Under the pieces are notes generated by a model that saw only the letters and a program-made list of their open reading frames with translations, had not been told where the DNA came from and ran no database searches. 38,505 nt of DNA, taken from positions 45,617-84,121 of the forward strand of contig JAJZNV010000022.1 in NCBI GenBank assembly GCA_021852265.1, in the 5' to 3' direction. Position 1 is the stretch's first letter, and every line of letters starts with the position of its first letter. Below are positions 29,844-38,322 of this stretch, piece after piece. The stretch is from Nanobdellota archaeon (lineage in GTDB: Archaea > Nanobdellota > Nanobdellia > Parvarchaeales > Parvarchaeaceae). A program made the translations under genes and the position numbers.

Positions 29844-29930
29844 CCCGAAATCGGCTCGAGTTTAACTGCTCCTCACTAATTTAATAGCTAAAAAGCTTAA
29901 TAATACATTGAAAAGTTAATACATTTAGAT

Positions 29931-30021
29931 GCCCCGATAGTCTAGAGGCCAAGGACATCGCCCTTTCGATCAGTTATCGAGAGGACAGGCGATGACCCGG
30001 GTTCAAATCCCGGTCGGGGCA
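29931..30021 (+). tRNA. tRNA-Glu (anticodon TTC) with 18-nt intron
   Basis: The acceptor GCCCCGA/TCGGGGC is perfectly paired, with discriminator A. The D arm is GTCT/GGAC. The anticodon stem is TCGCC/GGCGA, with loop CTTTCGA after removal of an intron at the canonical position 37/38. The T arm is CCGGG-TTCAAAT-CCCGG. The mature length is 73 nt. Its 3' end is the attachment site of the element that follows; integration leaves the gene intact. Confidence 0.93.
29969..29986 (+). other. tRNA intron with relaxed bulge-helix-bulge
   Basis: The 18-nt intron begins ATCAGTTATCGAG and lies between position 37 (G) and 38 (A). Flanking 3-nt bulges CG|A and AC|A are separated by a 4-bp helix (CTTT with GAGG, including two G-U pairs). 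The longer pairing CGAT/ATCG around loop CAGTT also folds the precursor. Cleavage by the archaeal splicing endonuclease is expected. Confidence 0.72.
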
Positions 30022-30023
30022 TT
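30009..30023 (+). repeat. Attachment site copy 1 (3' end of tRNA-Glu)
   Basis: CCCGGTCGGGGCATT, made of the last T-stem bases and the acceptor 3' strand of tRNA-Glu. It is repeated exactly at 33283-33297, in the same orientation. This is the expected signature of tyrosine-recombinase integration into a tRNA 3' end. Confidence 0.85.
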
Positions 30024-30041
30024 GAGAGAAAACGGGGAAAG

Positions 30042-30239
30042 GTGAAGCAAAGCCGCAAGTGGTTTGTTGTCTTCTTTATTGGAGTCAGTTATCTTTGGTT
30101 GCTATTTATTTTATTTTCAAAATCCCAAGAAATTACACTTACATTGTTAATTACTGGTTTTCTTATTAATTCTGAGGCGTTTTGGCTGCCTTCAATTATT
30201 GACAGGAAAAAGCAATTAAGCCGGACGGTACAACTATGA
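30042..30239 (+). CDS. Small membrane protein in the element (tentative)
   Basis: 65 codons from a GTG. The product has two hydrophobic segments (about 8-27 and 34-52) and charged ends (MKQSRKWF start, DRKKQLSR end), a sensible topology for a small membrane protein. No TATA box can be placed upstream because the tRNA lies there; transcription by read-through from the tRNA promoter is possible. A minus-strand candidate overlaps its 3' end, so at most one may be real. Confidence 0.35.
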   Translation: MKQSRKWFVVFFIGVSYLWLLFILFSKSQEITLTLLITGFLINSEAFWLPSIIDRKKQLSRTVQL

Positions 30240-30351
30240 TAGCTGCGCCAAGAATCAGGACTGTTACATTTGAGACCTGCTCTCCTACTAATCCAATTAC
30301 ACTTCCAAGAACAATACACACAATTATCCCTACTATACATTCCCAATCCAT
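30196..30351 (-). CDS. Very small two-helix membrane protein (tentative)
   Basis: 51 codons beginning MDWECIVGIIVCIVLGSVIG and ending LIAFSCQ. Two hydrophobic helices are separated by EQVSNVT. Upstream on the minus strand is an A/T-rich TATTAAAAGTATA-type stretch at a plausible promoter distance. It overlaps the plus-strand candidate by 44 nt. The evidence is composition and promoter spacing only. Confidence 0.3.
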   Translation of the reverse strand: MDWECIVGIIVCIVLGSVIGLVGEQVSNVTVLILGAAIIVVPSGLIAFSCQ

Positions 30352-30541
30352 TAATTATTATAATCCCTTGTATACTTTTAATCCTTTCAAAATCTCCGCT
30401 CAGCGAGCCGTTCCTATCGATAGTAGGAATACGACTATACAAAGCACTATAACTAATCTTAACTTCATATCTAACCAGTTTATTTTACGCACTAACCCTT
30501 TAACTGGCAATTTTAACTGTCAAATTTCAATGAGTTCCTTC

Positions 30542-30600
30542 TCACAGGCAACGGGTGTCTTATATCTAACCAATATTCTAAAAATACCCGTTGCTTGTGA
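30542..30600. repeat. 15-bp inverted repeat upstream of the integrase
   Basis: Arms TCACAGGCAACGGGT (30542-30556) and ACCCGTTGCTTGTGA (30586-30600) match at 14 of 15 positions, with the exception pairing as G-T in RNA. A 29-nt A/T-rich spacer lies between. It is in the otherwise gene-poor 770-bp stretch between tRNA-Glu and the integrase. It could be a recombinase arm or excision-factor site, or a regulatory hairpin. Confidence 0.6.
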
Positions 30601-30715
30601 TTTAATTGGTAAATCAAAAAGTCCGCATCACCGTGGAAGAGCTCCCGGAGAAAGCTTAAATTATGGAAAACACGACGACGGCAGCTATGGGGACGAGGAC
30701 AGCAACGATTACAGT

Positions 30716-30732
30716 GCCGGCTCAGAGCCGGC
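30716..30732. repeat. GC-rich 7-bp hairpin
   Basis: GCCGGCT-cag-AGCCGGC, a perfect 7-bp stem with a 3-nt loop. It lies about 60-75 nt before the preferred integrase start and no T run follows it. It may pause transcription or mark a recombination junction. Confidence 0.5.
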
Positions 30733-30756
30733 TGCATCCAGTATCAGCAGTAAATT

Positions 30757-30778
30757 GTCGGGGGGTGGGATTCGAACC
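30757..30778 (-). other. tRNA 3'-end-like fragment inside the integrase upstream region
   Basis: Read on the minus strand, GGTTCGAATCCCACCCCCC resembles a T loop, the 3' strand of a T stem and the start of an acceptor 3' strand. The 5' T-stem strand does not pair beyond two bases, so it is not a functional tRNA half. It translates on the plus strand as GVGFEPE, a string commonly produced when tRNA ends are read as protein. It may be an attachment-core remnant from a different tRNA. Confidence 0.3.
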
Positions 30779-30791
30779 GGAGTACTTTGAC

Positions 30792-31643
30792 ATGGAAAGC
30801 CACGAGATAATACCAAAATTCCTAGAATCGCTGGACAGAGAGGGCTTTTCGCCACGCACAAAAGAGTGGTATATCATCGTCTTGCACAAATTCCAAGAAG
30901 TCATACGAAACGATATCACCACAATAACCTCTGATGACGTCGACAAGTTTTTCTCTTTTATACGCTCCAGCGATTTCGTCTTTGAGACCAAGAAGCACTA
31001 CCTAAGCAGATTAAGGAAATTCGCTTTATGGCTTAACCCAGATTTGAAGCTGGCTCGTTATAGATTCCAGACCAAAGAGAAACGTATGCTGCCTCACGAG
31101 ACGTTATCTTTAGATGAGATTAAAAAGCTGATAGACTCAGCGGATAAAATCGGAGAGAAGGCAATTTTATCCTTGTTATATGATACGGGCTGCCGTCCGC
31201 ACGAATTATTGTCATTAAATAGGCAGGACGTGCAAAAGAACGAGAACGGGCTTTTTGTCTATGTGCCGGAAGACACAAAGACAGGTTCGAGGCAAATCCC
31301 AGTTATATTGACGACAAGAAGCGATTATTACTTAGAGCAATACCTAGAAGCGAATCCGATCAAGCCGGCGGACAAGTTGTTCCCTGTGAGTGTGTATTGG
31401 CTCAACTCTCTAATAAAGAACCTTGCCCTTAAATTGAATTTCGACAAGAGGGTTTATTCATATCTTTTCAGGCATTCGAGGGCTACGTTTTTGGCGCAGT
31501 ATTTGACGGAATCACAATTATGTGTCTATTTTGGCTGGAGACAAGGCAGCGATATGCCTAAAATATACATCCATTTGAGTGGGCGTGATATTTTGCCGGC
31601 GGTGATTGAGCTGAATAGAAAACTAAGAGAGGAGGTTTTATGA
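30792..31643 (+). CDS. Tyrosine recombinase/integrase (XerA-like)
   Basis: 283 residues from the ATG at 30792. A longer in-frame reading begins at 30663, or at 30687, about 27 nt after a TATA-like GCTTAAATTATGG. Its extra residues, however, read through the tRNA-like fragment and lack integrase character. The core-binding domain contains LDREGFSPRTKEWYIIVLHK. The catalytic domain contains the first Arg in LLYDTGCRPHELLSLNRQDV, a Lys in the beta hairpin PEDTKTGSRQIPV, YLFRHSRATFLA in which the usual HxxR is YxxR, GWRQGSDMPK, and the nucleophile Tyr in PKIYIHLSG. It is adjacent to the attachment sites and its stop overlaps the next gene by ATGA. Confidence 0.88.
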   Translation: MESHEIIPKFLESLDREGFSPRTKEWYIIVLHKFQEVIRNDITTITSDDVDKFFSFIRSSDFVFETKKHYLSRLRKFALWLNPDLKLARYRFQTKEKRMLPHETLSLDEIKKLIDSADKIGEKAILSLLYDTGCRPHELLSLNRQDVQKNENGLFVYVPEDTKTGSRQIPVILTTRSDYYLEQYLEANPIKPADKLFPVSVYWLNSLIKNLALKLNFDKRVYSYLFRHSRATFLAQYLTESQLCVYFGWRQGSDMPKIYIHLSGRDILPAVIELNRKLREEVL

Positions 31644-32422
31644 AAAAGAAAAAGACTTTTATTTCAAAAAAATCTAAATATTATGTAATGATGGAAAACG
31701 AAGCACAAATAAATTATCCTATCGATTTTTTGAGACAACTCTCCCTACAATTCCCATTGCAAGAAATAGCACTTTTGGCTAAACTTAAACGCTATGCGAC
31801 TTGGATGCGTCTAAAAAGTAAAATAGCCGAAATTCAAAAGGAAAACAAACAAGAAATCCTAAGTTTATATGATTCTATTTTAGAAATAACCAAAAAACAG
31901 GTTTATGACATAACACCGACTACCGAAGATATAATTAAAATTAAAAACAAAGTTGCAAGTATAAATGAAAAATTCAAAGATATAAATAAATTTTATGATA
32001 GTTGTTCAATTACGGAGAAAAGAAATCTTCTTTTACCTTTTTTGAAACAAGAGAGTTCTGAATTCAAAAAATATCTACCTATATTTGTCCAAAAATTAGA
32101 TTCAAAAAGTTCTTGGGACAAGAACGATTCGCTTATCTATGTGTATTATAAATTATATTTAGAATTAATTGATGCTTCATATCTAAAGTTATATTCAGAG
32201 GTGCCTTCTAAAATAGAATCTACTATAAATCAGATTTCATCTTTATTATTTTTTTATAAGCCAATATTAATTGCATATATCCTAAATAAATTAGATCATA
32301 AGGTTTTAATTAGACGATTAGCAGAGTTAAGAACCGACTTGCGCCCGAGAATTTTACCAAAGGTTACAAAAGAAATGAAAGAATTGTTTAAAGTCCCTCC
32401 CATCCAAGAAGACAATATTTAA
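31640..32422 (+). CDS. Unknown lysine-rich helical protein, element cargo
   Basis: 260 residues, very rich in Lys, Ile and Leu and almost entirely helical. MKKKKTFISKKSKYYVMM opens a basic N-terminus. No membrane segment is certain, although LLFFYKPILIAYILNKL (about 200-218) is hydrophobic. I recognise no family. It overlaps the integrase stop (ATGA) and ends 3 nt before the PIN-like gene, so the three form an operon. The base composition is far more A/T-rich than the integrase, indicating a different origin. It could be a partner or antitoxin of the PIN-like protein (inference). Confidence 0.62.
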   Translation: MKKKKTFISKKSKYYVMMENEAQINYPIDFLRQLSLQFPLQEIALLAKLKRYATWMRLKSKIAEIQKENKQEILSLYDSILEITKKQVYDITPTTEDIIKIKNKVASINEKFKDINKFYDSCSITEKRNLLLPFLKQESSEFKKYLPIFVQKLDSKSSWDKNDSLIYVYYKLYLELIDASYLKLYSEVPSKIESTINQISSLLFFYKPILIAYILNKLDHKVLIRRLAELRTDLRPRILPKVTKEMKELFKVPPIQEDNI

Positions 32423-32425
32423 ATT

Positions 32426-33223
32426 ATGGAAAAATCAACTGGAAAGTTTTTAGATACAAATGTTGTTTTTGATGCTACGTTTGAACTGCGATCAAATCGT
32501 AAGAACTTTCTAAAGTTCATGAAAGATTTTAAATATAAAGATTTGTTTGTGGAGACTGTAGTTACTTTAGAAGCTATTGAAATAATATATACAACTTTTG
32601 AATTAATTACGCCACTTATACGAAATATAATTTTTAATAGTGATTGGGATAATTTAAATGACAAAAAAAGACAAGAATTATTATCTGATATTAGTAATAA
32701 AATTGATAACGACGTAGAAATATCAAAAAATAACAGAACAGAATTCGCACAAGCGGAATACAATACATTGTTTCCTTCGTTTTTAACGGAGAATAAAGAA
32801 AATATCCAAGTGATACTAAGAATTGTGCCGGACCAGTATACTGAACACTTTAGAATGCGATTAGAAGATTTATTTGAAATATTTCAAGCCCATATGAGCG
32901 ACATAGATTACAGCGATTTTAACTCTGAGCTTAAAAAATTAAATGACAATAAAACTACTTTTGACATAAAAGACAGTATAGATTTTAAGATATTATGTAG
33001 TTTACTCTCTATTTTGCAGTTTGGGGGACAAGATAATACTTATGGAGAACATCATGAATTTAATAATGTAAATCTATATAGTCGTGATAGCAAGTTTTTG
33101 ACAAATGTAGAAAAATTTAAAAAATTAATAGAAGCCACTACCAATTCTTCATATATAAATATAAGTCAAATAAAACAAGATGCTAGTAACCTTTCAGCTG
33201 CACACCCCTATGTATCAGACTAA
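32426..33223 (+). CDS. PIN-like domain protein, candidate nuclease, element cargo
   Basis: 265 residues. The N-terminus FLDTNVVFDATF matches the PIN opening (hDTN, Asp10). An acidic residue in TLEAIEI (near residue 49) fits the second position. SIDFKILCSLLSIL (D near 187) fits the third, and NLYSRDSKFL (D near 222) matches the late hhTxDxxF motif. The acidic positions of a metal-dependent ribonuclease are therefore present, but a large helical insert (about 60-180) separates them, so it is not a standard short VapC toxin. It is the last gene of the integrase operon and lies 59 nt before the second attachment site. Confidence 0.6.
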   Translation: MEKSTGKFLDTNVVFDATFELRSNRKNFLKFMKDFKYKDLFVETVVTLEAIEIIYTTFELITPLIRNIIFNSDWDNLNDKKRQELLSDISNKIDNDVEISKNNRTEFAQAEYNTLFPSFLTENKENIQVILRIVPDQYTEHFRMRLEDLFEIFQAHMSDIDYSDFNSELKKLNDNKTTFDIKDSIDFKILCSLLSILQFGGQDNTYGEHHEFNNVNLYSRDSKFLTNVEKFKKLIEATTNSSYINISQIKQDASNLSAAHPYVSD

Positions 33224-33282
33224 AACTTAAATATATGAGAACAAACATCAAATATCATTCTAATATGCGAGAAAGCATAGCA

Positions 33283-33297
33283 CCCGGTCGGGGCATT
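33283..33297 (+). repeat. Attachment site copy 2
   Basis: CCCGGTCGGGGCATT, identical to the tRNA-Glu 3' end at 30009-30023 and in the same orientation. The bases before it (GAAAGCATAGCA) are unrelated to tRNA, so this is an isolated core rather than a duplicated tRNA. It separates the first element from the truncated recombinase and restriction-modification genes. Confidence 0.85.
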
Positions 33298-33345: not shown

Positions 33346-33825
33346 TTGGAGGCTGCAAAGAAGGCGGGCATAACCAAGCGAGTACATGCTCATGCATTTA
33401 GACGTGCAAGGGCCACACATTTGGCAAAAGTATTCCCCGAAGCTGTAATGAAGCAGATATTTGGCTGGACAAATGATAGTGACATGGCAGCACTTTACTA
33501 TCATCTAAGCGGAAAAGATGTAGACGAAGCCTTACTAAAGTTACACGGAATAAAAACCGAAAATACTGAAGAAGTCAAAGCTGAAACAAGAGTATGTAGA
33601 AGATGTACAGCGGTAAATTCCGCATTTTCTCAATTTTGTAAGAACTGTTCATTTCCATTAGATAGCATGGAGGTAATCAAACTAGACAATAAAATAAGAA
33701 AATTTGATGGGTTGTTAAGGGATTTCTTTGTATATTATGCTAATAAGGATAAAAAGTTTAAAGAAATATTCTTAGAATTTATACATGGATCAAATTCAGA
33801 AAATATTTTTAGTTTAGATAAATAA
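33346..33825 (+). pseudogene. 5'-truncated tyrosine recombinase with C-terminal zinc ribbon
   Basis: Only the C-terminal part of an integrase remains. VHAHAFRRARATHLAK contains the HxxR box. GWTNDSDMAALYYHLSG has the nucleophile Tyr. A zinc ribbon CRRC...CKNC and about 60 helical residues follow. The core-binding domain and the first catalytic Arg are missing, and an in-frame TAG (33340-33342) lies just upstream of the first usable codon, a TTG. It begins about 50 nt after attachment copy 2. It is not a copy of the intact integrase, because sequence and C-terminal domain differ. Confidence 0.75.
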
Positions 33826-33830
33826 GTTTA

Positions 33831-33842
33831 TCTATATAAAAC
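33831..33842 (+). promoter_or_regulatory. TATA box of the restriction-modification operon
   Basis: CTATATAAAACA lies about 26 nt upstream of the mod ATG at 33863, predicting a leaderless transcript for mod-res. No other promoter-like element is obvious between the recombinase remnant and mod. Confidence 0.55.
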
Positions 33843-33862
33843 ATAAAAATGTAATCTAGTGT

Positions 33863-35791
33863 ATGGATGACGCTGAACTAAAATGGAAGAACAAAAATAC
33901 ACAAATAGAGAAGATTTCGCTTCCATTTCAAAAGATAGAAGAAGTGAATTTATCTAATGCTGCCAAGGGAACACTTCTGCCAGAAATAAGAGAAACCGAA
34001 GAGGCCGCATGGAAAAATAAACTAATCTGGGGGGATAACAAGTATATCATAAACTCACTTCTTAAAGATGAAACCGTGGCAGGAAAAATAAAATTAATTT
34101 ATATAGATCCGCCGTTTTTCACCGGCACGAACATGAACATAAACATTAGCATTGGTAGCAAAGCGGAAGTTACAAAAGAACCATCTGCAATAGAAGAAGT
34201 GGCTTACAGAAACATGTGGAAAGAAGGGGTCTCATCTTTTTTACAGTATATGTATGAAAGAATAAAACCGATGCGAGATCTTCTTTCTGAAGATGGGGCG
34301 ATATATGTTCGCTTTGATTATCATTATGCGCATTATATAAAGTTAATACTCGATGAAATATTTGGATATGAAAATTTCAGAAACGAAATAATTATCAATC
34401 GCACGAGGAAAAACGTAATGGAATCCCAAACTCAGAGAGTATTTCCAACAGCTACAGACTCCTTATTTTTATATGCTAAAAGCGAAAGCGCATTGTTGAA
34501 CCAAGTGGTTAAGAAGATGAGTGAAAAGAGGGAAGCCTTTTGGAGACACATGGATGATTCGGCTGGTCAAGGAGGGCCAAAAATATTTTTTGGCAAGCAG
34601 CTTTCTCCACCAGTTGGAAAGCACTTCAAATATTCACAAGAAAAAATAAATGAGATGATTTCGGAAGGTAAGTTGAGATTAAAATGCAAAGAGTGTGGCT
34701 ATGAGCACACTAAAGGCGAATGGAGAAAGTGTCCTAAATGTAAAAAAGACAATCCAAAACCAGAATATTTTGTTGCTGAAAAGGAACATCAATTAATCGA
34801 TACTAATTGGACGGATATCCCGGGCTATTCATTTAGTACTGGCTACCCCACAGAGAATTCAGAACAAGTTTTAGAACGAGTAATTTTAGCTTCGTCAAAA
34901 AAAGGAGATGTTGTAGCAGATTTTTTTGGAGGATCTGGTACGACCGCCGCCGTAGCAGAAAAATTAGATAGGAGATGGATAACTTGTGATATAGGCAGAT
35001 TTTCTATACACACAATGAGAAAAAGACTACTTGAGATACCAACATGCCAACCATTTGAAGTTCTAAATTTGGGAAAATATGAAAGACAACAATGGATCTC
35101 AGAAAATACAAAGGGAGACTATAACTCTTATATTCTTTTTATTCTACAGCTGTATGGCTCAAAACCATTAGATAATTTCTCTTTCATCCATGGTAAAAAA
35201 GGCTCTAAAGCAGTTCATATTGGTCCTATAGATTCTCCAATTTTAAAGGAAGAAATTTGGAATGCTTTGAAAGAATGTAAAAGTGCGGGATTTGGCGACT
35301 TAGACATTCTCGGTTGGGAGTGGGAACTGGGACTAAACGATTCTATAATCAAAGAAGCTAAAGATGAATTTAATGTAAGTTTGGCGTTGAAAGTTATTCC
35401 TCGCGAGGTAATGGATAAACGCGCTACAGACGCTGGCGATGTTAAATTCTATGAGCTTGCCTACTTAAAAGCTAACTTAGAAGCAAAAAAACTTAATGTT
35501 AAGGTAAAACTTGATAAATTTATAATACCAAACGTAGATGAACTGCCGAAAGAAATAAAAGAAAAGGTCAAAAGCTGGATGGATTATATAGATTATTGGG
35601 CGGTGGACTGGGATTTTAATGGTACCTTTCATAATGAGTGGCAAACATACAGAACTAAAAAAGACTCTAAATTAGAGTTAGAGACTCCTTTACATGAATA
35701 TAATAAAAAGGGGAAACGAAAAATACAAATAAAGGTCATAGACATTTTTGGAAACGATACAAGTACCGTAAAAGAGGTTTCCTTAGCATGA
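33863..35791 (+). CDS. mod: Type III-like adenine-specific DNA methyltransferase (Mod)
   Basis: 642 residues, N6-adenine methyltransferase of the beta class: catalytic motif IV IDPPFFTG (81-88, Phe in place of the usual Tyr) comes before the SAM motif DFFGGSGTT (353-361). Between them, in the target-recognition region, is a zinc ribbon with cysteines 275, 278, 290 and 293 (CKECGY, then CPKC). The C-terminal 240 residues end in KIQIKVIDIFGNDT, a domain common in archaeal and bacterial Mod proteins paired with Res. Mod supplies both methylation and DNA recognition for the complex. The stop overlaps the res start by ATGA. Confidence 0.92.
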   Translation: MDDAELKWKNKNTQIEKISLPFQKIEEVNLSNAAKGTLLPEIRETEEAAWKNKLIWGDNKYIINSLLKDETVAGKIKLIYIDPPFFTGTNMNINISIGSKAEVTKEPSAIEEVAYRNMWKEGVSSFLQYMYERIKPMRDLLSEDGAIYVRFDYHYAHYIKLILDEIFGYENFRNEIIINRTRKNVMESQTQRVFPTATDSLFLYAKSESALLNQVVKKMSEKREAFWRHMDDSAGQGGPKIFFGKQLSPPVGKHFKYSQEKINEMISEGKLRLKCKECGYEHTKGEWRKCPKCKKDNPKPEYFVAEKEHQLIDTNWTDIPGYSFSTGYPTENSEQVLERVILASSKKGDVVADFFGGSGTTAAVAEKLDRRWITCDIGRFSIHTMRKRLLEIPTCQPFEVLNLGKYERQQWISENTKGDYNSYILFILQLYGSKPLDNFSFIHGKKGSKAVHIGPIDSPILKEEIWNALKECKSAGFGDLDILGWEWELGLNDSIIKEAKDEFNVSLALKVIPREVMDKRATDAGDVKFYELAYLKANLEAKKLNVKVKLDKFIIPNVDELPKEIKEKVKSWMDYIDYWAVDWDFNGTFHNEWQTYRTKKDSKLELETPLHEYNKKGKRKIQIKVIDIFGNDTSTVKEVSLA

Positions 35792-38322
35792 GTAGCCCAT
35801 TCGAAGAACCAATCGATAGAATGGCGACTTTAGCACCACTAGTACCGAAAATCAGAGAAGAAGTAAATAAGTGGCGCGCAGATGGCTATCCGGGAGCTTC
35901 GGAAACAACTAATTCATTATTAAACTTCTGGTTCAATGAAGACCATAAACAAAATGAGAGATTTTTCCGCTACTATTTTTGCCAACGAGAAGCTATCGAA
36001 ACCCTAATATACTTATACGAAGTGAAAAAATTTAGGCGACTAGAACAATTAGTAAGAATTTATGATACAACAAAAAAGGTAGCCTATAATCCAAATGAAG
36101 ACTTATTCGCAAAATACTGTTTTAAGATGGCTACTGGAACAGGTAAAACAAAAATAATGGCATTAGCCATTGTTTGGTCTTTTTTTAAGAATATAATAGA
36201 TAAAGATGACGCATTCGCAAAAAACTTCTTAATAATGGCACCAAACATAGCCGTTTTCGAAAGACTAAGGAGCGATTTCGAAAGTGGAAAAATTTTAAAA
36301 TCGGACCCATTGATTCCTGAGGAACTCCAAAGTTATTGGGATGTAGACTTTGTAATGGCGGATGAGATAACTAGCAAATCATCTAAAGGAAGAGTATATC
36401 TTACGAACGTTCAAAAATTATACGAGAGAAACGCTGCTAATGAATTAAATCCAATAGAAAAATTGATTGGCACAAAACCGAATGATGTAAAAACTGCATA
36501 TGAACTAATATTTAATGATATTATAGAAGCAGATAGCTTAGCGATTTTTAATGATGAAGCACATCATGTTTGGGATCCCGATTTAAAATGGAATAAGATT
36601 ATTACTGGTTTATATGAGAAATTTTCGGCCAAAAATAAAACCTTTTCTTTTCAGTTAGATTTTTCTGCTACACCTAAACGACAAGATACGGGTTCATTAT
36701 TTCAATGGATAATAGTAGACTATCATTTAATGGACGCTATTAAAAATGGTGTCGTCAAACGTCCTTTAATCGGCGATATAGAAAACGCGAGAGAAGTTCC
36801 ATCATCAAAAGCGGACATAAGATATAGAGATTATATTGAGGCAGGAATTCGCAGATTTAATAAATATAAAGAAAAGTATGCACCGTTAGGCAAAACGCCA
36901 GTTATATTTTTTATGGCTACAAACACAAAGGAAGCTGAAGATGTGGCAGATTTTCTCAATAAGAAAAATGAATTCAAAAATAAGATTTTGCTAATCCATA
37001 CTAATTTAAAGGGGGATATAAGTGACAAAGAATGGACAGAATTAAAAGAAGAAGTAAAAAATTTAGATTTTACAGATGGAAAATATTTAGCTGTTGTAAG
37101 CGTTTTAATGTTAAGGGAGGGTTGGGACGTTAAAAGTGTTAATGTAATTGTTGGGCTTAGACCTTATACTTCAAAAGCAGATATTCTACCTGAGCAAACT
37201 CTGGGACGCGGATTAAGGTTGCTATTCGGCCCAGAATCCGGGTACTCTGAAACCGTCGATATTTTTGGTTCGTCTGGATTTATAACGGCTATAGATCAAA
37301 AACTGCAGCAAGAGGGAGTTAAAGTTGAACACGTTAAAGAGAAAGATTTCCAAGACATAACTAATATTTTTGTAGATCCAAATAAAAAACGTTTGGATAT
37401 CGAAATTCCATTAATAACACAAAAATATACGAGAACTAGCAGACCATTAAACGATCTAAAAATAGAAAACCTACCTAAAAAACTATTTTCATTAGACATT
37501 AACCAATACTCAATAACAAAAACTGCTAGAGGAAAAGATATTCTAACTAAAAAGCAAATATGGAAAGAAACCTGGAAACAGCCTTCGCCAGAGAATTTCG
37601 AAGGAATAATAAGTTATTTTTCATCGGCTATTCTAAGAGAGTGTAAAATTCCATCCAGAACTAATGAGTTAATCCCAAAAGTAGATGATTATATAACTAA
37701 ATACCTATTTGATCGGCCATTAAACGATAAAGACAAAAAAGACGATCGATTCCTTAATAGACTAGTTGAGCCAGGGGTATTTCAAATTTTATTAGAGATT
37801 TTCCCTGAAGAAATAAATAAACTTACCATCTCTCCACAAAAAGTAAAATTAGAAAACAGAAATCGTAAAGCTTCACAAGTGCAGCCATTTTTAACTAGGA
37901 AAAAAGTCTATAAGCCACAAAAATGTATTCTTAACCTTGTTCCGGTTGCAAATGACTTGGAACTTAGGTTTTGTGAATTTCTTGATAGGGTTAAAGATGT
38001 TAAAAAATTCATAAAAAATGATGTTAACCTTAACTTTTATATCGAATACGTTAATTCAATGGGGGGAATTTCGTACTATCAACCCGACTTTATTGTGGAA
38101 ACAACAAAAGGCACGTTTTTAGTTGAAACGAAGGGCTTTGAAACTGAAGACGTTCCAAGAAAAGATAAGCGTGCTACTGAGTGGTGTAAGGATGTTTCTA
38201 AATTAACAAAAAATAGCTGGTGTTATCTAAAAGTAAAACAAGACGCATTTGATGTAAACGTTAACGTAGCCACGTTTGAGAAATTTGCTAAAATAATGCA
38301 AGTTTATAACAAGACAAAATAA
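35788..38322 (+). CDS. res: Type III-like restriction subunit (Res): DEAH helicase plus PD-(D/E)XK nuclease
   Basis: 844 residues, ATP-dependent translocase and endonuclease partner of Mod. Walker A is ATGTGKT (115-121), DEAHH is at 256-260, SAT at 293-295, and the helicase motif VI region is PEQTLGRGLRLLFG. The C-terminal nuclease has D767 in YQPDF and E780-x-K782 in VETKG, so PD-(D/E)XK is complete. All catalytic residues look intact, so the system is probably active. It starts inside the last codons of mod (ATGA), which ensures balanced synthesis. Confidence 0.93.
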   Translation: MSSPFEEPIDRMATLAPLVPKIREEVNKWRADGYPGASETTNSLLNFWFNEDHKQNERFFRYYFCQREAIETLIYLYEVKKFRRLEQLVRIYDTTKKVAYNPNEDLFAKYCFKMATGTGKTKIMALAIVWSFFKNIIDKDDAFAKNFLIMAPNIAVFERLRSDFESGKILKSDPLIPEELQSYWDVDFVMADEITSKSSKGRVYLTNVQKLYERNAANELNPIEKLIGTKPNDVKTAYELIFNDIIEADSLAIFNDEAHHVWDPDLKWNKIITGLYEKFSAKNKTFSFQLDFSATPKRQDTGSLFQWIIVDYHLMDAIKNGVVKRPLIGDIENAREVPSSKADIRYRDYIEAGIRRFNKYKEKYAPLGKTPVIFFMATNTKEAEDVADFLNKKNEFKNKILLIHTNLKGDISDKEWTELKEEVKNLDFTDGKYLAVVSVLMLREGWDVKSVNVIVGLRPYTSKADILPEQTLGRGLRLLFGPESGYSETVDIFGSSGFITAIDQKLQQEGVKVEHVKEKDFQDITNIFVDPNKKRLDIEIPLITQKYTRTSRPLNDLKIENLPKKLFSLDINQYSITKTARGKDILTKKQIWKETWKQPSPENFEGIISYFSSAILRECKIPSRTNELIPKVDDYITKYLFDRPLNDKDKKDDRFLNRLVEPGVFQILLEIFPEEINKLTISPQKVKLENRNRKASQVQPFLTRKKVYKPQKCILNLVPVANDLELRFCEFLDRVKDVKKFIKNDVNLNFYIEYVNSMGGISYYQPDFIVETTKGTFLVETKGFETEDVPRKDKRATEWCKDVSKLTKNSWCYLKVKQDAFDVNVNVATFEKFAKIMQVYNKTK

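Follow-up and report, generated by a model that had tools for sequence, protein, structure and literature searches.

An orphan two-gene cargo, P0001-P0002, in a small tRNA-Glu-targeted integrative element of a Nanobdellota archaeon

Which genes travel with very small integrative elements of archaea, and what might they do there? The question is raised by a 38,505-nucleotide stretch of contig JAJZNV010000022.1 from a Nanobdellota archaeon (hereafter the window), which reaches the contig end in a 0.78-Mb assembly that is 88% complete. An earlier note, made from the DNA alone, had described an undescribed two-gene cargo at 31640-33223, consisting of a lysine-rich protein and a PIN-like nuclease with a large insert, translationally linked to an integrase. 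The coordinates are right, and both genes are present as described: P0001 (260 aa) at 31640-32422 and P0002 (265 aa) at 32426-33223, both on the forward strand. The meaningful unit is larger, however, as the pair lies within an element at 30009-33297 whose terminal repeats the earlier note had missed.

The cargo genes and the nuclease question

The start of P0001 lies within an ATGA that it shares with the stop codon of the integrase gene, with a GGAGG just 5' of the overlap, which bears out the proposed translational linkage, and P0002 starts 3 nt past the P0001 stop. P0001 is basic (14.6% lysine; 47 K+R against 32 D+E), while P0002 is acidic (31 K+R against 43 D+E). The G+C content of both genes is 27-28% (0.27-0.28), compared to 0.42 for the window integrase; their codon-position G+C follows the pattern of coding DNA and, by our own estimate, open frames of this length are not expected by chance at such a G+C content. 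A 15-mer, TTAAATTATGGAAAA, is found both at the upstream integrase start (30656-30670) and at the start of P0002 (32419-32433), a recurrence that may be due to chance in AT-rich DNA.

No curated family matches either protein, and no relatives of P0001 or P0002 were found in 371 genomes of the phylum, in viral contigs or in phage and plasmid records, in scans with single proteins that detect only close relatives. The phylum search returned only weak matches to parts of the proteins, from one or two genomes and within unrelated open reading frames, and a scan of a wider collection of genome contigs, carried out for P0002 only, returned no relative. In agreement with the earlier description of the partner as unrelated to known antitoxins, P0001 has no match to an antitoxin or DNA-binding family.

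P0002 resembles PIN nucleases by motif order only. Its acidic positions D10, E49/E52, D183/D186 and D221 follow one another in the order expected of PIN domains, with D10 in an N-terminal FLDTNVV motif (residues 8-14, DTN at 10-12), E49/E52 after a hydrophobic stretch, and D221 within SRDSKF. PIN identity finds no backing in a profile, a relative or a structure. About 115 residues separate the second and third acidic regions; an insert of this sort is not distinctive, as PIN_12 and PIN_8 proteins have a long stretch at the same place. The structure prediction proposed for the PIN active site yielded no usable fold (AlphaFold2 model built with no alignment; pLDDT 35). A loose regular expression for the full PIN order was discarded as useless, being passed by 525 of 200,000 shuffled sequences and by only 7 of 35 true PIN proteins.

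P0002 has about an even chance of being a nuclease, and if so it would be a PIN-like, metal-dependent one. It is also possible, at somewhat under even chance, that P0002 is not a PIN protein at all, that the motif order is coincidental and that the pair has another effector or structural role. Such a reading would agree with the results of our profile searches, in which P0002 had no PIN match in Pfam, NCBIfam, PADLOC, PHROGs or the PDB, and none to the Pfam PIN families up to an E-value of 1 for the whole protein or of 10 for its pieces and for the core without the insert. It would also agree with Pfam's best match, a brief segment of 6-phosphofructo-2-kinase (E-value 1.5e-4 when a fragment was searched), an assignment that we rejected for P0002, which has no Walker A motif. 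In hhalign comparisons P0002 scored within the range of its shuffles, both against VapC-type PIN domains (28 PF01850 sequences; 14.4, shuffles up to 17.8) and, in an insensitive test with 7 sequences, against PIN_12/PIN_8 (18.7, shuffles up to 28.1). These negative results are weak, however, because known PIN_12/PIN_8 proteins themselves reach scores of just 13-27 with the VapC-type profile, and one of these falls below P0002. Coincidence is further made less likely by the rarity of the strict N-terminal motif (hhDTNh), which, although written after P0002 had been seen, occurs in only 420 of 1,000,000 shuffles and in none of the other open reading frames among 405 background frames of at least 100 aa, and by the three other acidic positions that come in order after it.

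For P0001, the AlphaFold2 model (also with no alignment) is all-helical but of low confidence (pLDDT 51), and a Foldseek search with it returned nothing at an E-value of 0.001 or better. If P0002 is a nuclease, P0001 could be its basic, helical partner, which would either keep it inactive or target it to RNA.

A small element at a tRNA-Glu gene

Upstream of the pair, an intron-containing tRNA-Glu (UUC) gene was detected with ARAGORN at 29930-30022 on the forward strand. The program left the tRNA type unnamed, and we assigned it by alignment with the orthologous genes of relatives. An exact 15-bp direct repeat of the 3' end of this gene, CCCGGTCGGGGCATT, is found on the forward strand at 30009-30023 (attL) and again at 33283-33297 (attR), and thus bounds an element of 3.3 kb, with the chromosomal tRNA gene as target and its 3' end as attachment site. 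Between the repeats lie a small membrane ORF on the forward strand (30042-30239), which belongs to a conserved left module, a second one of 51 aa that overlaps it on the reverse strand (30196-30351), a tyrosine integrase gene (30663-31643, forward; conserved from 30792), the pair P0001-P0002, and a right end (33225-33297, forward) that includes attR and is conserved across the element family. The integrase matches Pfam PF00589 (E-value 3.4e-11), and its nearest NCBIfam model is the XerA-like NF040815 (E-value 9.9e-30), although below the cut-off of that model. Close to the start of the integrase frame, the antisense stretch GGTTCGAATCCCACCCCCCGACA (30755-30778) looks like the 3' end of a tRNA; we dropped it as a second attachment site, as the assembly has no matching tRNA elsewhere and the corresponding stretch in G326 (see below) is not tRNA-like.

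When searched at an E-value of 1e-8, the integrase has matches in 7 of 32 genomes of the same family, the window's own included. In three of these, all metagenome-assembled genomes deposited as Nanoarchaeota archaeon (YF1.bin68, DBS2-5.bin35 and DS4.bin97; here G326, G376 and G373, respectively), it is encoded just behind tRNA-Glu. These sister elements, of 2.8, 2.2 and 4.1 kb, are likewise flanked by direct repeats, which measure 13, 12 and 14 bp and lie 2796, 2179 and 4056 bp apart (3274 bp in the window). Two of their integrases are 84% and 73% identical to that of the window, while that of G373 is split by a frameshift. The small membrane protein of the left module is kept in the G326 and G376 elements, and the N-terminal part of the overlapping one in G326. 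The tRNA-Glu intron is present in the window, G326 and G376 and absent from G373 and most relatives, independently of the presence of an element. The family as it stands comprises four copies, all from metagenome assemblies and with short repeats (12-15 bp). In line with the earlier note, which had placed the pair on a mobile element, the ends are set by these repeats and sister copies occupy the same tRNA-Glu. A further, decayed copy in G326 (G326:C19, 1122-1600), located at tRNA-Glu(CUC), is 95% identical to the G326 element at its left end and 99% identical in a piece of the integrase, which suggests recent movement. In the genome that the window comes from, tRNA-Glu(CUC) shows no copy, and the element ends were not found in viral contigs. 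As the right flanks of the relatives do not match one another, no empty site could be demonstrated.

The window and G326 elements are 86% identical in the left 399 bp, 79% in the integrase DNA and 84% in the final 69 bp; the DNA that separates the integrase from these 69 bp shows no significant match. The same holds when all four elements are aligned, with similarity ending at the ATGA of the integrase and returning in the right end, starting near ACTTAAATAT. In all four, the slot between these points begins with an ATGA on the integrase stop codon, and the first genes coupled in this way, of 260 (P0001), 119, 64 and 69 aa, do not resemble one another; by eye, that of 64 aa is zinc-ribbon-like and that of 69 aa a membrane protein. 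Across the elements, the cargo has a G+C content of 27-32%, against 42-48% for the integrases. The otherwise unrelated last genes of the G326 and G376 elements share their final codons (KYxNKH and the stop), as these are encoded by the conserved right end. As the first gene differs among the four elements yet is joined to the integrase in the same way in each, the coupling belongs to the element rather than to the P0001-P0002 pair.

Possible roles of the pair

As sister elements with the same backbone and at the same tRNA-Glu carry entirely different genes in the slot, P0001-P0002 is very probably exchangeable cargo rather than part of the element's machinery, and since these elements persist without it, it is dispensable for integration. 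The element would enter the 3' end of tRNA-Glu by means of its own tyrosine integrase, and the cargo may be read from the integrase transcript. That the pair is exchangeable cargo and includes a nuclease effector, taken jointly, falls a little short of an even chance. More tentatively, we propose that these minimal archaeal elements form a family with a single fixed dock, between the integrase ATGA and the conserved right end, into which unrelated genes are swapped and at once translated with the integrase, and that the dock here holds a new nuclease-partner system.

As to function, it is conceivable, though far from assured, that the pair serves in defence or in competition between elements, in which case it would be kept because it benefits the host or excludes rivals. 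We consider this likelier than a housekeeping role because other integrases of the genus adjoin restriction-modification genes, which is an association only. In the window, a truncated zinc-ribbon tyrosine integrase gene (33346-33825) follows directly after attR, and then a type III restriction-modification system (33863-38322) that extends nearly to the contig end; the region 33346-38322 probably represents an older element, stacked with the present one at this tRNA-Glu. A longer relative of this truncated integrase is found in another genome (G088), at that genome's own tRNA-Glu. In G377 (contig C21), an integrase gene overlaps a methyltransferase gene and a second methyltransferase gene adjoins, and in G376 (contig C25) an integrase is encoded near proteins that by eye are Vsr-like and C5-methyltransferase-like. 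The cargo of the G326, G376 and G373 elements includes no recognisable defence family.

We regard as rather unlikely that the pair is instead a toxin-antitoxin addiction system, with P0002 as nuclease toxin and P0001 as antitoxin, so that loss of the element would kill or arrest the cell. While the adjacency of the genes at a distance of 3 nt, their opposite net charges, their location on a mobile element and the PIN-like motif order of P0002 would all fit, P0001, with its 260 aa, is far above the usual length of an antitoxin and has no DNA-binding family match, and the sister elements persist without the pair or any known toxin-antitoxin family. Finally, the notion that P0001 and P0002 are the element's own machinery for excision, replication or transfer, which their direct coupling to the integrase might suggest, is very improbable and largely refuted by the elements whose integrases share 84% and 73% identity with that of the window: they occupy the same site without both genes and carry unrelated ones instead.

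If exchangeable cargo in a fixed dock proves general, the slot would offer a short and easily searched place for unfamiliar defence or competition genes of tiny archaea, about whose own defences little is known, as well as a clean natural experiment, with the same backbone and the same site but different cargo. Taken by itself, the P0001-P0002 pair is orphan cargo of two genes, one of them for a plausible, unproven nuclease.

Comparison with known systems

With respect to VapBC systems, the likeness lies in two adjacent genes and in the PIN-like acidic order of P0002; on the other hand, P0002 has no match to the PIN family of VapC (PF01850), is 265 aa long and has a long middle stretch, and its 260-aa partner is not a known antitoxin, whereas VapBC has a small, DNA-binding one. 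The PIN_12 (PF16289, DUF4935) and PIN_8 (PF18476) families, with models of 172 and 227 positions, resemble P0002 in the long stretch that separates the second acidic position from the third, but show no sequence similarity to it that our insensitive comparison could detect. Compared by integrase and layout, integron cassettes are similar in that exchangeable cargo lies beside a tyrosine recombinase related to XerA and the integron integrases; however, the window integrase scores just 41.5 bits on TIGR02249 (cut-off 265), and there is one cargo slot within an integrated element in place of an array. In contrast to SSV-type archaeal elements, where the attachment site lies inside the integrase gene, which is split, the repeats here lie outside an intact integrase frame.

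The backbone itself is that of a small tRNA-targeted integrative element, which is a known kind: it has an integrase of the PF00589 family, a repeat of the tRNA 3' end on either side, and relatives at the same site. Archaeal tyrosine recombinases (PMC8371274) provide the wider frame of comparison, and tRNA-targeted islands and cryptic integrated elements have been described in archaea such as Thaumarchaeota (PMC6563490). With the latter, this family shares the tyrosine integrase, insertion at a tRNA 3' end that restores the gene, short direct repeats and cargo of unknown function, but it differs in its very small size (2.2-4.1 kb), consisting essentially of an integrase and one cargo slot, and in the start of that slot, which in each of the four members coincides with the integrase stop codon. 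Within our limited search of the literature, it is this fixed dock, holding unrelated cargo in every one of the four copies and, in one, an orphan pair, that appears to be new.
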